The translations under genes were made by a program, and so were the position numbers. A stretch of DNA of 64,000 bases from the NCBI RefSeq assembly GCF_002119405.1, contig NZ_MTBG01000001.1, positions 62,001-126,000 on the forward strand, read 5' to 3'. This stretch comes from Pseudoruegeria sp. SK021. Lineage in GTDB: Bacteria; Pseudomonadota; Alphaproteobacteria; Rhodobacterales; Rhodobacteraceae. Positions within the stretch are counted from its first letter, which is position 1. Each line of letters begins with the position of its first letter. The notes under the pieces were generated by a model. The model saw nothing but the letters and a program-made list of their open reading frames with translations, did not search any database and was not told the origin of the DNA. Shown here piece by piece: positions 54,219 to 63,728 of this stretch.

Positions 54219-54266
54219 TCGTCGACCCAACCATGGCGCGACACAGCAAAAGGTTCGCACTCACAA

Positions 54267-54303
54267 TCACCCCGTCTGCTTGCAGGCGGGGTGATGTTTT
54301 TCT
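54267..54303 (+). terminator. Intrinsic terminator of clpA
   Basis: TCACCCCGTCTGC (54267-54279) pairs with GCAGGCGGGGTGA (54282-54294, one wobble) around a tight loop, followed by a T-rich run. It lies about 50 bases after the clpA stop and may also serve the convergent gene. Confidence 0.88.
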
Positions 54304-54314
54304 GGGCGGGGTGC

Positions 54315-56042
54315 CTAGCGTTCGGTCAGCTTGAGTTCAATCCGGCGGTTCTGCGCCCGCGCCTCGGGCGTACTCGCTGAATTGACCGGCTGAAACTCTG
54401 CAAAACCGGCAGCGGCCAGACGATCTGGCGGAAAGCCGAACACGTCGACCATAAAGCGCACAACGGACAGCGCCCGTGCCTGGCTGAGTTCCCAATTGTC
54501 CGAAAAGCGCCCGCCCGTGGACAGCGGAACATCGTCAGTATGTCCATCGACGCGGATGATCCAATCAATGCCCGATGGGATCACCGCCGCGACCTCTTGC
54601 AAAATCCGGGCGACTTTGGAAATCTCGAACCGCCCCTCTTGCGAGAGGTCCGCCGACCCAGAGGCAAACAACACCTCGGAATCAAAGACAAAGCGATCCC
54701 CGACCACCTTGACGCCCTGTTGATCGCCCAGAACCTCGCGCAGTCGGCCAAAAAACTCGGATCGGTAATTGGCAAGCTGTTTGGCTTCCGCCTCAAGCCG
54801 GGTCCGCTCGGCCGCTTCCAGTTCGGCGCGGCGTTTCTGCTCGGATGCGACCCGGGCCAGCGCCACATTCAGGTCCGCCCCCAGCGACTGAATGCGTACG
54901 TCCGCGGCGACGTCGTCGGCTTTGGCGCTGTCGAGAAGGTCTTGCAAGCTTCCAACCTGACGCCGCAAATCCGCGACCTGCGCATTCAACGCGGCCATCA
55001 TCCGCTTATCGGCGTCGCTTGCGCCCTCAAGATCGGACAGTTCGGTCTTGGCCAAGGCCAACAGACGATTTTGCCGCTCTGCGTCTGTCAGGGCTTCCTG
55101 TGCAGCCGTCTCGGCGCTTTGACGTGCCAGAATGGCTGCCGCCAGATCCTCGGCAGTAGCCGCGCTGTCGGACAGCGCCGCGGCCAATCGCGCATCCAGA
55201 TCCTCCCGCGCCGCAGTCGCCGCCGCCAACAGCGTCAGGGTATTCTCCGCCTCCTTGCGCTGCGCTTCCAAGGACAGGGTCATGGCCGTCAGTTCCGCGT
55301 CAGAGGCCTGCAAGCGCGCCCGCAAGGCTTCGGCCGCCGCCGCCTCGGCCAGTTTCGCGGCCTCTTCTTCCGACAACGCCGCCGTGACTTCGGAAAGTTG
55401 TTCTTCGCTCTGCGCAAGCGCGGCCTCAGCACCCGCCGCATCGCGCCGCAGATCGGCAATCAGCGCCTCAAGCGCCTCTCGCCGGGCCGCAGCCAGCCGC
55501 GCCGCTTCGGTTCCGGCATCTACTTCACTGCGGGCCAAGGCCAATGCGGTTTCCAGCGCATCGCGTTGCTCGGTCTGCTCGGTCACCGTCACTTGCAGGT
55601 CGGCGACCTGATCCCGCGCAGTATCCCGATCCACCAGCAGTTGCGTGACTTGCGCCTCATAAGCCGTGATCTTGGTCTGAGCATCACTCAGTGCGGCGTT
55701 GCGCCGTTCAATTTCCGTGGTCAGGGTTTCCACCAAACGGGTCTGAAACGCAGTGTCGGACAAGGCCCCTTGCAGATCAAGCCCCAGCTTATCCATCTGA
55801 TCTTGCAAAGCAAAATTGCGCTGCTGTTCCCCGCCAAGCGCCTGAGACAGGTCGTTAATCTGCTGCGACAGGCTGTCTAGTTCAGTTTCCTGACCTGTGA
55901 TCGTCTCGGTCTGGATCGATTGAACCACCATAAAAATGGTCAACACAAAGATCAGAACCAGCAACAGCCCCGTCATCGCGTCGACAAATCCGGGCCAGAT
56001 CGAAGCCTGAAACCGTTGCCCGCTGCGTCGATTCAGAGCCAC
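54315..56042 (-). CDS. MotB/OmpA-like protein with one membrane anchor and a very long coiled coil
   Basis: A 575-residue protein. A single membrane segment spans ~17-42 (WPGFVDAMTGLLLVLIFVLTIFMVV), where Asp21 corresponds to the proton-binding Asp of MotB/TolR/ExbD. About 380 residues of Ala/Glu/Leu/Arg-rich coiled coil follow. The C-terminus (~440-575) is an OmpA domain for peptidoglycan binding (FASGSADLSQEGR; VDGHTDDVPLSTGGRFSDNWELSQARALSVVRFM; RRIELKLTER). The start is GTG at 56042, three bases after the preceding stop, with GAGAGG in the upstream gene end. It forms a stator-like unit with the MotA/ExbB-like neighbour, anchored in the wall and driven by the proton gradient. Its target is unknown. 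Confidence 0.85.
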   Translation of the reverse strand: MALNRRSGQRFQASIWPGFVDAMTGLLLVLIFVLTIFMVVQSIQTETITGQETELDSLSQQINDLSQALGGEQQRNFALQDQMDKLGLDLQGALSDTAFQTRLVETLTTEIERRNAALSDAQTKITAYEAQVTQLLVDRDTARDQVADLQVTVTEQTEQRDALETALALARSEVDAGTEAARLAAARREALEALIADLRRDAAGAEAALAQSEEQLSEVTAALSEEEAAKLAEAAAAEALRARLQASDAELTAMTLSLEAQRKEAENTLTLLAAATAAREDLDARLAAALSDSAATAEDLAAAILARQSAETAAQEALTDAERQNRLLALAKTELSDLEGASDADKRMMAALNAQVADLRRQVGSLQDLLDSAKADDVAADVRIQSLGADLNVALARVASEQKRRAELEAAERTRLEAEAKQLANYRSEFFGRLREVLGDQQGVKVVGDRFVFDSEVLFASGSADLSQEGRFEISKVARILQEVAAVIPSGIDWIIRVDGHTDDVPLSTGGRFSDNWELSQARALSVVRFMVDVFGFPPDRLAAAGFAEFQPVNSASTPEARAQNRRIELKLTER

Positions 56043-56045
56043 GGC

Positions 56046-57245
56046 TCAACGCCTCTCGGTGTCGGTCGGGATGGCGGCAGCGATCTCAATCACCCGGGTC
56101 AACCGCGCCAAATCCTTACGCAAATCGGCCGTCATTTCCTGACGCCCCGCCGTGACCTCTTCCAGAACACGCAACAATTGGACATCGATACTACGCAGAC
56201 GCGCCCGCGCTTCGGCTTGCTGCGCCTCGGCCTCAGCAAGGGGCCGCGCGACCGAGGCGGTCAGTGCCGCCACCAGCGCCTCTTGCCCGTCGGCAATACG
56301 GGTCAACGCGGCTTTGGTATCGGCATCCTCGGTCAACTTCTGGGTCATGCGATCCAGTGATCCGGCCAGCGCACTCAGCTTTTCATCCACCAAGCTTCGG
56401 CTACGGTCCGACTGCATGAACGTCGTGTGCAATTGGTCAAACTGCTCGGTCATTTGGTCCATCAGGGTGGCGAACATGCCGCTTTCGGCGCTGCCACCCT
56501 CGGAATCGCCAGCCGAGTACCCAACCCGGGTGATCGAGGACAGCCATTCTTCTAACTCGCGATAGAACCGGTTTTGCCCGTGCCCTGCGAAAAGTTCCAA
56601 CAAGCCGACCACCAGTGACCCGGCCAACCCCAGCAAAGAGGACGAAAATGCAGTGCCCATGCCGCCAAGCTGTTTCTCGAGGCCGGTGATCAGCCGTCCG
56701 AACACTTCGGTCGAGCTTTCCCCCGGTGCCGGTGCAAGCGAGCGCACCGTGTCAACAACCGCAGGAATTGTCGTTGCCAGACCGTAAAACGTCCCAAGAA
56801 GGCCAAGGAAAATCAACAGACTGGTAATATAGCGCGTGATATCGCGTGCCTCGTCCAGACGGGTCGCCACCGAATCGAGGATCGACCGCGACGACGACGC
56901 GCCAATTTGCATCTTCGCGCCACGGGACCGGAGCAGCGCCGCCAGCGGAATCAGCAACCGAGGCGGATGTTTCAGGTCGAACCCCGGACGGCTATGCGCG
57001 AAGCCTTCGATCCAGCTGACCGATGAGATCAGCTGAAAAACCTGAAGGAAACAGGCCAAAACGCCAAAAACGAAGACCAGCACGATCGCGCCATTCAGCC
57101 ACGGGCTGGACAGAAAGACCGACGACACCTTCGGATACGCCACATATGCCCCGATCGCGAAAGCGACCACGACAATGAGCATCAACAGGATCTGGCGGAT
57201 GGGCTGCGAAAATTGCGCCCTGACCTCGCGGTCCCTGTAAACCAT
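56046..57245 (-). CDS. MotA/TolQ/ExbB-type proton channel protein
   Basis: A 399-residue inner-membrane protein with membrane segments at about 17-38, 48-70, 135-160 and 192-220. The MotA_ExbB motif region (GLLGTFYGLATTIPAVVDT; GMGTAFSSSLLGLAGSLVVGLLEL) carries the channel helices. A cytoplasmic C-terminal tail of about 170 residues is largely helical (FDQLHTTFMQSDRSRSLVDEKLSAL to the end), longer than in ExbB. With the downstream MotB/OmpA-like protein it resembles a five-to-two stator complex. GAGGCGAAA precedes the ATG. It follows chaC on the same strand at a gap of about 70 bases. The cargo is unknown. Confidence 0.85.
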   Translation of the reverse strand: MVYRDREVRAQFSQPIRQILLMLIVVVAFAIGAYVAYPKVSSVFLSSPWLNGAIVLVFVFGVLACFLQVFQLISSVSWIEGFAHSRPGFDLKHPPRLLIPLAALLRSRGAKMQIGASSSRSILDSVATRLDEARDITRYITSLLIFLGLLGTFYGLATTIPAVVDTVRSLAPAPGESSTEVFGRLITGLEKQLGGMGTAFSSSLLGLAGSLVVGLLELFAGHGQNRFYRELEEWLSSITRVGYSAGDSEGGSAESGMFATLMDQMTEQFDQLHTTFMQSDRSRSLVDEKLSALAGSLDRMTQKLTEDADTKAALTRIADGQEALVAALTASVARPLAEAEAQQAEARARLRSIDVQLLRVLEEVTAGRQEMTADLRKDLARLTRVIEIAAAIPTDTERR

Positions 57246-57311: not shown

Positions 57312-57890
57312 TCAGTGGTCGGCGGTGCGGTTGACGTCTGTCAATTCCAGCACTCGCGCCACCAGCCAATCCAATTCCGGGTCCTCAAGGCCAAGTTGGC
57401 TGAGGTGGCTGGCCGTATGGATCAGATAGTCTGCGTTCGGCCCGCGCCCGCCATGGGCCCGCGCGATGATCGCGGCCTGTTCGTCCAACGGCAGACCGCC
57501 GCAATACTGGCCGTGGTCTGGGTCCACCACATAGGTCAGCGCCGACACCTCCGGCCCGTGGTCGAGGCGCACGTCGAGGCGCATTTCCAGATAGGCCGAG
57601 GACACCAGTTCCCGTTCGCGTAGATCAAACAAAGTTTGCTCGACCGCCGCGGGGGCCACCCCAAAGGCTACCCCGGAACACGCCGCATCGGGCCGCGGAT
57701 CCAGCGCCAGCACCAAGCCCGGCGCGTCAACCGTGCCGCGATGGTGGATGGAGCGCATACAGAACGACCGGTGATACCCGGGCAAGGTCGCCAGCTCGCG
57801 CCGGACAAACGGAAACCCGGGGTTCCAGACCAGCGATCCATAGCCGAAAACCCAAAGGGCGACATCCGAAGTCTGATCTGGTGTGTTCAT
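57312..57890 (-). CDS. ChaC-type gamma-glutamylcyclotransferase
   Basis: A 192-residue protein with WVFGYGSLVWNPGF at about 12-25, the substrate loop of the GGCT fold, and a conserved acidic residue in the YLEMRLDVRLD region as the candidate catalytic base. ChaC enzymes release 5-oxoproline from glutathione or other gamma-glutamyl compounds. The ATG at 57890 was chosen because the upstream extension overlaps the divergent DUF2125 gene and lacks protein character. It forms a same-strand group with the stator-like pair. Whether it acts on glutathione or another gamma-glutamyl peptide cannot be told. Confidence 0.92.
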   Translation of the reverse strand: MNTPDQTSDVALWVFGYGSLVWNPGFPFVRRELATLPGYHRSFCMRSIHHRGTVDAPGLVLALDPRPDAACSGVAFGVAPAAVEQTLFDLRERELVSSAYLEMRLDVRLDHGPEVSALTYVVDPDHGQYCGGLPLDEQAAIIARAHGGRGPNADYLIHTASHLSQLGLEDPELDWLVARVLELTDVNRTADH

Positions 57891-57953
57891 GGCACTGGCC
57901 CTTGCATGGTCCCCTCTGTAAACACGGGAGGAGCGAACGGAAAAGGCCCGACA

Positions 57954-58964
57954 ATGCGAATTCTTCTGGCAGTGATTATTTTGGCAGCCCTCGGCTGGAC
58001 CGGATATTGGTTTATCGGCGCCCGAACCGCCGAAACAGCCGTGCAGGATTGGCTCGCCATGCGCGAGGCCGAAGGCTGGGTCGTCAGCGCCTCGGATGTC
58101 TCGACGGGGGGCTTTCCCTACCGGTTCGACACCAGCATTACCGATCTTGATCTGGCCGACCCCGACACCGGGCTGGCTTGGCGGGCGCCGCTGTTCCAGA
58201 TTCTCGCGCTCAGCTACAATCCCAATCACGTGCTGGTCTTCTGGCCCGAGCGGCAAAGCATCGCGACACCGCTTCAGACGATCACCGTCACCAGCAACAA
58301 CATGCGCGGCTCGGCCATCTTTCATCGCGGCTCTGACCTTGAGCTAGACCATGCCACGATTGAGTTCGACACCGTCGGGTTGGTTTCAACCCTTGGCTGG
58401 AACGCCGCGCTGGATCACGGGCAGTTCGCCATCCGGCAAACCCCGGTCAGCCCGCTCAGCTATGACATCGCGCTGGATGCCCGCGACCTGATCCTGCCGG
58501 ATCGCCTGACGGAACCGCTGCGCGCGCGCGGCATGGCCAGTGATACGGTCCAAACCCTGAAACTGGATGCCACCGTCACCTTCGATGCCCCGTGGGACCG
58601 TCTGGCCATCGAACAGCGCCGTCCGCAGCCCACCCGCATCAAACTGACGACAGCACGGGCCAGTTGGGGCGAGCTTGACCTTCAGATCAGCGGCGATCTG
58701 GCCATCGACCCGCGTGGCACGCCCAGCGGGGAGATCACGATCAAGGCCCGAAACTGGAAGGACATGCTGCAACTGGCGCGCAATGTCGGGGCAATTCCCG
58801 ACAGCCTGTACCCGATCATCGAAAGCGGCCTGTCGACGCTGGCCCGTCTGTCGGGAAGTGCCGACAAAGACACGATCACAGCACCGCTGACCCTTCGCGA
58901 TGGCCGCGTCACCTTGGGCGGTCTGATCCCGCTTGGCCCGACCCCGCGCATGATCTTGCGTTAG
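57954..58964 (+). CDS. DUF2125 domain membrane-anchored protein
   Basis: A 336-residue protein with an N-terminal membrane anchor or uncleaved signal (MRILLAVIILAALGWTGYWFI) and a long periplasmic beta-rich region: VSASDVSTGGFPYRFDTSITDLDLADPD is the DUF2125 signature. The family is uncharacterised and common in Rhodobacterales and Rhizobiales. It is reminiscent of AsmA-like and other lipid-transfer or envelope repeat proteins, but this is only a structural analogy. AAAAGG precedes the ATG at 57954. It is divergent from the chaC/stator-like cluster, and its stop is one base from the convergent extensin-like gene. Confidence 0.85.
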   Translation: MRILLAVIILAALGWTGYWFIGARTAETAVQDWLAMREAEGWVVSASDVSTGGFPYRFDTSITDLDLADPDTGLAWRAPLFQILALSYNPNHVLVFWPERQSIATPLQTITVTSNNMRGSAIFHRGSDLELDHATIEFDTVGLVSTLGWNAALDHGQFAIRQTPVSPLSYDIALDARDLILPDRLTEPLRARGMASDTVQTLKLDATVTFDAPWDRLAIEQRRPQPTRIKLTTARASWGELDLQISGDLAIDPRGTPSGEITIKARNWKDMLQLARNVGAIPDSLYPIIESGLSTLARLSGSADKDTITAPLTLRDGRVTLGGLIPLGPTPRMILR

Positions 58965-61900: not shown

Positions 61901-62521
61901 TTAGTTCTGAGCGTAATATTCGATCACGAGGTTCGGTTCCATCATGACGGGGTACGGCACATCACCCAGACCCGGGGTGCGCACGAACGACGCGGTCATC
62001 TTGGATTGGTCGACCTCAAGGTAGTCGGGAACGTCACGCTCGGCCAACTGGCTGGCTTCCAGAACGAATGCCAACTGCTTGGACTTGGTGCGCACTTCGA
62101 TCACGTCACCTTCTTTGACCCGGTAGGACGGGATGTTGACCCGCTGACCGTTCACAGTGACGTGGCCGTGGTTCACGAACTGGCGGGCCGCAAAAACGGT
62201 TGCTACGAACTTGGCACGGTACACGACGGCGTCCAAGCGACGCTCGAGCAGACCAATCAGGTTCTCACCGGTATCACCGCGCACACGCTCGGCTTCGGCG
62301 AAGATGCGGCGGAACTGCTTTTCAGTCAGGTCGCCGTAATAGCCTTTGAGTTTCTGCTTGGCGCGCAGCTGCAGACCAAAGTCAGACACTTTGCCCTTGC
62401 GGCGCTGGCCGTGTTGGCCGGGGCCGTATTCACGGCGATTCACTGGCGACTTCGGACGGCCCCAGATGTTTTCGCCCATGCGGCGGTCAATTTTGTACTT
62501 GGCAGACGTGCGTTTGGTCAC
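61901..62521 (-). CDS. rpsD: 30S ribosomal protein S4
   Basis: A 206-residue ribosomal protein: [25 protein letters not shown], the [40 protein letters not shown] segment, and the S4 RNA-binding domain ([53 protein letters not shown]). It is one of the first proteins bound in 30S assembly and can repress its own operon. The start is a GTG at 62521 with AAGGAG 7 bases upstream; the long frame before it is not protein-like. It stands alone, not in the alpha operon, as is usual for this group. Confidence 0.97.
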
Positions 62522-62750
62522 GGCTGATCTCCTTCGATGTGGCGCCATGAGGGCGGCGCGGTGTAGAAGGGCGTTGTCCTCTCCCGGTTCGGTGGCCCGA
62601 TCCGGTCGACAGGCAATTCCTTGCGGAAGCCACCAACACCAATGCTTCCGAGAAAATCCCGGAAGTCGCTGGCTAGAAGTGTTGCGCTGTGGTGTCAAGG
62701 GATTTCGCCGGTGCCATTGAAACCCACCGGCCATCCGTCTGGGCGGGCGT

Positions 62751-63605
62751 CTAAAGATCGTCGCGCAGCACGACGATCTCGATCCGGTTGTTGCGGAGGC
62801 TCATCCGGTTCAGATCGGCAGGTTTTCGATCTGCAAAGCCGGTCACGCGCTGGATGCGCCGGGGATCGAATCCAGACCCTTCCAGCATCGCGCGCGCCGT
62901 GTCAGCCCGTGATGTTGACAGATCCCACACCGGGTTATCCCGCACCACGATCGGGCGGGCAGCCAAATAGCCCGCGACCGAAATGTCATTCGTCACCAAT
63001 CCCAAAAGGCTGGCGACACTGGCCAAGGTATCCTCAAGCAGCGGAGTCGGGCGCGTGGTCCCGGGGTCAAACAACTGGGCTGAAGGACTGTCGAAAATGT
63101 CGATCACCAACCCCTCATCAGACAGCCGCGTCACCACATGACGGGCCTCTTTCAGGGCCGCCATGCTTTCGCCCCCCCGCGCTGTCAGGGTTTCCAGCAG
63201 GTCCTCAGCCACGGCCAGCGCGCCGGGTCCAGACGACCCCTGCCCTGCGCCGCCAGCCTCTAGGGCAAGATCGCCCCGGGCCTTGTTCATTTCCGCCTGA
63301 AATTCCTTTGATGCACCAGTGCCGGTCTGGGCCAGCGTATCCTCAGAGAACACGTCATCCCCCCAGAACGAGCCATCGCCGCCGCCCGACATCTTGGTGA
63401 TCGGAATGGTCGGCGAAAAATAATCTGCCAACCCTTTGCGTTGCTGTTCGGTGGTAGCATTCAGCAACCACATCAACAAAAAGAACGCCATCATCGCGGT
63501 GACGAAGTCGGCATAGGCAACTTTCCATGCGCCACCATGATGGCCGCCGCCCGCCACGACCTTCTTTCGCTTTATGATTATCGGCGCAAGTGCCTCACTA
63601 CTCAT
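62751..63605 (-). CDS. motB: Flagellar motor protein MotB
   Basis: A 284-residue stator subunit: a short cytoplasmic N-terminus rich in Lys and His ([17 protein letters not shown]), the single membrane helix [20 protein letters not shown] with the conserved Asp for proton passage, a linker, and the OmpA peptidoglycan-binding domain (YFSPTIP plug region; later [12 protein letters not shown] and the NNRIEIVV end). It anchors the flagellar stator to the wall. The ATG at 63605 follows GGGGTGTG. motA is not in the window, and the downstream neighbour is rpsD across a 229-base gap. It is distinct from the MotB-like gene at 54315. Confidence 0.93.
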
Positions 63606-63728
63606 CACACACCCCACAACTCACCCGTCGCCTAGGTAGCATTCCGGGGATGAAGGTGAGCTTAAGCCGGAGCAGAGCCATCCATCATTCGTCAACGATG
63701 GTTAAGATCGCGCCTGTGCCCAGCGGCG

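Follow-up and report, generated by a model that had tools for sequence, protein, structure and literature searches.

Among the closest described counterparts of the gene pair considered here are the stator-type systems TolQR, ExbBD, flagellar MotAB and the ZorAB of Zorya anti-phage defence. A transmembrane (TM) Asp in the B subunit is a feature of the TolQR/ExbBD family, and Zorya is patchy in distribution and borne on islands. According to one recent survey (PMC12505986), non-flagellar B subunits show no OmpA homology.

The pair lies on the minus strand of a 64,000 nucleotide stretch of Pseudoruegeria sp. SK021 (contig NZ_MTBG01000001.1, positions 62,001 to 126,000; hereafter the window, from whose first letter positions are counted). 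Gene A (56046..57245) encodes a 399-residue channel subunit of TolQ/ExbB/ZorA type and gene B (54315..56042) a 575-residue protein with a TM segment, a long coiled coil and an OmpA domain. The family looks like an exception to the survey's statement on OmpA. The pair is conserved in many Alphaproteobacteria and is a housekeeping system rather than one of phage defence. On balance we favour its assignment as a proton-driven, wall-anchored envelope motor, likely for wall growth, septation or coordination of the wall with the outer membrane. By homology a motor is likely; the role in wall growth is a reasoned guess from neighbouring genes and one overexpression study.

The gene pair and its predicted structure

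Both open reading frames (ORFs) are where the initial annotation had placed them. A starts with ATG, B with GTG, and three bases separate the stop of A from the start of B. No Pfam or NCBIfam model matched A at an E-value of 0.001; the S. meliloti A orthologue is just above the cut-off of PF01618, MotA_ExbB (23.9 against 22.9 bits), and the window A does not pass it. B belongs to the PRK09039 'peptidoglycan-binding protein' group (NF006542 to NF006546), passing NF006542 (PRK09039.1-1) with 763.2 bits (cut-off 388), while the S. meliloti B orthologue passes NF006544 with 692 bits (cut-off 362). That membership supplies a name only, with A, the gene order and the variation of the coil absent from the family description.

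Asp21 and the OmpA domain of B are intact, as had been claimed. Asp21, in the motif IWPGFVDAM, lies in a probable TM helix at residues 20-43 (55914..55985, minus strand), placed from the sequence, the alignment and an AlphaFold2 (AF2) prediction. It is invariant in all 18 B proteins aligned, and W16, P17 and V20 are likewise invariant. The OmpA peptidoglycan-binding domain, residues 458-566 (54345..54671, minus strand), matches PF00691 in the Pfam scan with 63.8 bits against a cut-off of 27.2. Residues of TM3 and TM4 in A are invariant among 24 aligned proteins.

The AF2 model of A (predicted local distance difference test, pLDDT, 73) has long helices at residues 16-46, 48-83, 116-168 and 178-244, probably transmembrane, followed by a helical tail at 253-391. 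Superposition on solved structures places TolQ/ExbB best, with a VIA Z of up to 11.9 over about 190 residues, then ZorA (Z approximately 9.4-10.2) and MotA/PomA (Z 8-9.7); the fold is only suggestive, because helical bundles score alike by common arrangement, and the best Foldseek E-value was only 8e-3. The model agrees with the earlier description of a MotA/ExbB-type channel with a long helical tail. Among the matches listed, a search of PDB sequences with the A profile gave the coiled tail against unrelated helical proteins.

If the complex is built like TolQR, ExbBD, MotAB and ZorAB, the TM helices of two B subunits would be enclosed by five copies of A. The passage of protons at Asp21 would make the assembly rotate or rock, and the coiled-coil rod of B would transmit this motion across the periplasm to the OmpA domain on peptidoglycan; in this way proton-motive force would probably drive growth of the wall, septation or the coordination of wall and outer membrane. 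The genes and their domains, the invariance of Asp21, the presence across the class, the conserved order, the coil changes by whole heptads and the lack of recognised defence genes alongside are direct observations, whereas the 5:2 stoichiometry, the use of protons, the membrane topology and the role in wall growth are features that we infer.

Conservation of the pair

A is present once in its own genome. It was matched in 48 of 61 relatives: within the window's family in 35 of 37 genomes (G014, which is 82% complete, and G029 lack a match), and elsewhere in the class in 13 of 24. With the family profile, A was found in 250 of the 385 class genomes sampled, roughly two thirds, and among the matches listed at least 12 are genomes of 1.0 Mb or less. 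A phylum sample searched at E 1e-10 gave 99 matches in 398 genomes: 26 in the family, 61 in the rest of the class and 12 outside the class. Six of these 12 are strong (E 3.8e-96 to 1.4e-128; genomes G478, G538, G571, G552, G778 and G674) and six weaker (1.3e-11 to 2.9e-30). A and B adjoin in all five loci examined outside the class (L166-L170), with neither efp nor suhB in the stretch; for A in such genomes transfer or an older origin is possible.

Gene order was compared in loci from named records, the top 80 among at least 590, which represent close relatives only and are nearly all titled Rhodobacterales (by title the exceptions are L118, Sphingomonadales, and L122, L147 and L162, given to class or phylum only). 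B directly follows A on the same strand in 79 of these 80, the 80th being cut by a contig end, and chaC is directly upstream of A in 73 of the 78 with enough upstream sequence. Because B follows A with such regularity and the coil spacings described below are quantised in heptads, the pair is non-random.

The 26 class loci from outside the window's family were tallied by eye. B follows A in 22; L042 is at a contig end, the B of L043 (genome G041) is on a different contig (L044), and the stretches around L039 (G042) and L172 (G661) yielded no B. Upstream, a same-strand suhB occurs in 20 of the 26 and efp in 18, with no adjacent chaC in any and one distant chaC, in L037. The family loci L045 and L047, the earliest-branching family rows in the tree considered below, are still near suhB and efp, and the chaC-A-B order therefore looks derived. 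That chaC and a DUF2125 gene adjoin the pair in the window, as had been noted, is confirmed by Pfam. Their proposed value as functional context is not upheld, and we rejected a functional tie to them, since the pair is class-wide and suhB stands instead of chaC in most of the outside-family loci.

A possible link to wall growth

In S. meliloti (CP090106, a record labelled pSymB that nevertheless carries these genes) the gene order is thiE, a sel1-repeat gene (381 residues), suhB, A (368 residues) and B (342 residues). The sel1 product has Sel1 repeats and a signal-peptide-like start. Judged by locus numbering, domain content and signal peptide, the gene is probably rgsF (SMc03995). Krol et al. 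(PMC7327166) place RgsF (SMc03995) in the periplasm and assign it one TPR and six Sel1-like repeats; attempts at a knockout were unsuccessful, cells depleted of it were short and round, and the protein co-localises with RgsP at the growth pole and septum.

A further indication comes from Komagataeibacter hansenii, which is non-flagellate. Jacek 2019 (PMC6570709) reports adjacent genes, a 'motA' of 348 residues with four predicted TM segments and a 'motB' of 321 residues with an OmpA domain, the MotB being 46-48% identical over 95-99% to proteins of Rhizobium, Rhodospirillum and Magnetospirillum. Overexpression gave elongated, chained cells and the GFP fusions were polar. Compared by that description, these genes probably belong to the same family: they too form an adjacent pair in an alphaproteobacterium, with a four-TM A and an OmpA-type B, although they were named as motility genes and their B is shorter than that of the window.

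Several observations weigh against assigning A-B as a motor for wall growth. No match to A was found in 135 of the 385 class genomes, and A is without an adjoining B in L039, L043 and L172. The sel1 neighbour, further upstream, is confined to four of the 26 outside-family loci (L036, L038, L164 and L181), its assignment as rgsF is one that we infer, and the passages of PMC7327166 considered, its data sets aside, do not name the pair among interaction partners. Orthology of the K. hansenii genes is likewise indirect, and the data in the available part of that study comprise overexpression and localisation, with overexpression also increasing colony spreading threefold and producing no change in E. 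coli. A search of the mostly open-access literature, supplements aside, returned no deletion or loss-of-function study of the pair, and the available parts of PMC12204202, PMC10470522, PMC9275681 and PMC10746171 contain nothing on it. With respect to fold, a designed three-helix bundle superposes on A with Z 10.6, and in the tool used helical bundles reach Z of about 13 by common arrangement, so that A scores under the safe level.

Comparison with Tol and Ton systems

TolQR and ExbBD provide the nearest folds to A and differ in the partner, since B has an OmpA domain and coiled coil instead of an ExbD/TolR domain. B has no match to ExbD/TolR (PF02472), and the only PF02472 match in the genome is TolR itself (C1:180199), which with TolQ (C1:180707) is on the same contig about 61 kb from the pair. 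No tolA, tolB or pal was found among the scanned neighbours. The earlier view that the pair is not a Tol or Ton system and has no tol genes adjoining it is thus sustained, and membership of these systems was rejected. Since tolQ/tolR, motA and motB all occur elsewhere in this genome, A-B constitutes a third stator-type pair.

Could A-B still energise the outer membrane in the manner of Tol or Ton, the coil pulling or releasing an outer-membrane partner? The fold of A is compatible with this, and a candidate partner exists. In 14 of the 26 outside-family loci a gene between suhB and A encodes a secreted, variable, mostly Pro-rich protein that ends in an OmpA domain (here termed c16; for example L031:6103-7509, L033:9505-10845 and L036:6124-7008, with 285-843 residues in nine ORFs read). 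However, B already carries an OmpA domain of its own, c16 has no good match in any of the 37 family genomes (three give weak matches), and six genomes without a match to A (G038, G040, G053, G055, G057 and G058) have a c16-like match. An outer-membrane energiser of this kind is possible, though we consider it unlikely. As a fixed partner of the pair c16 is not upheld, being present in little more than half of these loci, poorly matched in the family and matched where A is not.

The coiled coil of B

The AF2 model of B (pLDDT 73) has helices at residues 20-174, 179-291 and 297-438, then the OmpA fold, with pLDDT below 50 at the break at 173-179. The coil of about 380 residues given in the initial annotation is right in length, and is split by the prediction into three helices. 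Conservation picks out two islands within it. Island 1, residues 179-194 (EAARLAAARREALEAL; 55461..55508, minus strand), comes just after the predicted break at 175-178; island 2 is at residues 251-259 (LTAMTLSLE; 55266..55292, minus strand).

Of 130 loci, 114 yielded a B sequence, as did the window, loci without both end motifs (L046 is one) being excluded; removal of the duplicates L115 and L148 left 113 proteins, with island 1 in 93 and both islands in 91. Lengths range from 303 to 1440 residues with a median of 611, a few proteins being cut by contig ends. The longest orthologue, in L046 (7906-14994), has 2363 residues, and its coil contains some six or seven near-identical repeats of 339 bases (113 residues).

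Between the TM motif and island 1 the spacing is 2 modulo 7 in all 93 measurable proteins, over nine distinct lengths of 135-198 residues. Between the islands 87 of 91 spacings share one heptad phase, as do 17 of the 20 distinct lengths, which are the fairer measure because related sequences are not independent. From island 2 to the OmpA domain three phases cover 84 of 98. The islands were chosen by conservation, and the modulo 7 test is post hoc, the pattern having first been noticed by eye. At the level of sequence, this quantisation shows a real coiled coil with its register kept. Change of length by heptad steps is expected of coiled coils generally.

At 0.149 nm per residue, the roughly 390 residues of the window coil would extend to about 58 nm. 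The periplasm is roughly 20-30 nm deep, and the coil must therefore fold back or lie flat. Of the wall-spanning force device envisaged at the outset, a wall-linked force is still plausible and a straight wall-spanning rod is not. One arrangement would be a folded-back lever, in which the first rod, fairly constant in length at roughly 20 nm, reaches the outer membrane, island 1 forms the tip that touches an outer-membrane partner and the chain returns to peptidoglycan through OmpA. We regard this model as speculative and rather improbable.

Another reading is that the pair is no motor but a passive wall tether or a gated proton leak, in favour of which the coil is far too long for a stiff rod held straight. 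Against this, the invariant TM Asp in B and the invariant TM3/TM4 residues in A are reminiscent of the functional parts of the motor families, and the coil stays in register between the TM helix and island 1. For these reasons a tether or leak appears improbable to us.

Relationship to Zorya and flagellar stators

With the A profile, two ZorA3 proteins reach 58 bits, compared with 5 for the genome's own TolQ and -0.6 for its own MotA, and the PADLOC ZorA1 model matches all 24 A-family members tested. In a tree of 58 rows, built after removal of L211, whose frame is doubtful, and of L188, which almost duplicates L187, A and ZorA together are split from 29 TolQ/ExbB-type rows by a branch with support of 100/100; the tree is weak, as that branch is very long, MotA contributes one row and the bootstraps are not settled, and it does not separate the A family from ZorA as a clade of its own. 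On these comparisons the resemblance to Zorya that the initial annotation called loose is real homology, and ZorA may be the nearest characterised kin of A. The ZorAB of types I and III is similar in having an OmpA-type B subunit and a tail on A. It differs in the size of A (675 and 958 residues in two ZorA3 proteins compared to 399), in the long coil of the B subunit of our pair and in the housekeeping distribution of the latter.

A Zorya-like sentinel, in which perturbation would open the channel or signal through the A tail, draws on this kinship and on the helical tail that A and ZorA both carry after the last TM-like helix. The distribution of A is neither patchy nor island-borne: genomes usually have a single locus, with recurring neighbours in a housekeeping context, and genomes below 1 Mb are included. 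No ZorC, D, E, F or G was recognised beside the pair in the Pfam/NCBIfam scan, the flanks not having been run against PADLOC, and phage records gave no match to A. A whole-genome search for ZorC (PF15611) was silent in the controls also, hence uninformative, and is not used. With PADLOC applied here without a cut-off, the best Zorya score of the window A is 45 bits (ZorA1), whereas 815 is reached by a ZorA3 that adjoins ZorB3 and ZorG3. Two of the weaker matches outside the class that were checked (G435 and G716) are ZorA3 by PADLOC, one of them adjoining ZorB3 and ZorG3. We consider a sentinel very unlikely. Membership of Zorya was rejected on the distribution, the weak score and the absence of a recognised effector, while the kinship is retained; the earlier observation that no effector genes are near thus stands, and a defence function is unlikely.

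Flagellar MotAB resembles the pair in the four TM-like helices of A and the OmpA domain of B. In the window a separate motB (62751-63617) has both the MotB_plug domain (PF13677) and OmpA, which supports the earlier statement that A-B is not the flagellar MotAB, and the genome's motA match (C1:491270-491563, genome G000) is elsewhere on the same contig. Some 366 kb separate that match from this motB, whose neighbour at 61901-62734 looks, by eye, like ribosomal protein S4. An accessory flagellar stator is scarcely credible, and membership was rejected: B does score with MotB/MotD models through its OmpA domain and motB is about 5.5 kb away, but B has no MotB_plug match in the Pfam scan, motB is near the pair only in L051-L055, from the window's genus (50 relative loci fetched), and the probable Komagataeibacter orthologue occurs in a genus without flagella.

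Flanking features

The genes scanned around the pair with Pfam and NCBIfam are clpA, chaC, DUF2125, an extensin-like gene and motB. The window chaC is directly upstream of A at 57312..57890 on the minus strand, its start placed from the conserved part of the ORF 57312-58325. Of the 80 named-record loci, some of them truncated, 51 have a convergent clpA beyond B and 36 an M23 peptidase gene (for example L048:4105-5049, convergent with B), the latter in keeping with a link to envelope growth; in the window clpA occupies the place of the relatives' M23 peptidase gene. A 13-pair hairpin (54266..54295, strand unassigned) between the convergent clpA and B is terminator-like on the plus strand only and might also end the A-B transcript, in a scan that is weak, with six terminator-like sites found against 4.3 expected from shuffles.

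Implications

If the folded-back lever were true, the motor would displace the outer membrane relative to the wall as a third trans-envelope force system of Alphaproteobacteria, and ZorAB would either have branched off for defence from this housekeeping stator or be its sister. Irrespective of that model, the kinship with ZorA gives the defence motor a housekeeping relative, and the heptad-quantised coil offers a direct test of the passage of force across the periplasm. A is widespread in the sampled class, yet these proteins are filed as 'MotA/TolQ/ExbB' or 'peptidoglycan-binding protein', and the genes around the pair in Rhizobiaceae give a hint of an essential network for wall growth.

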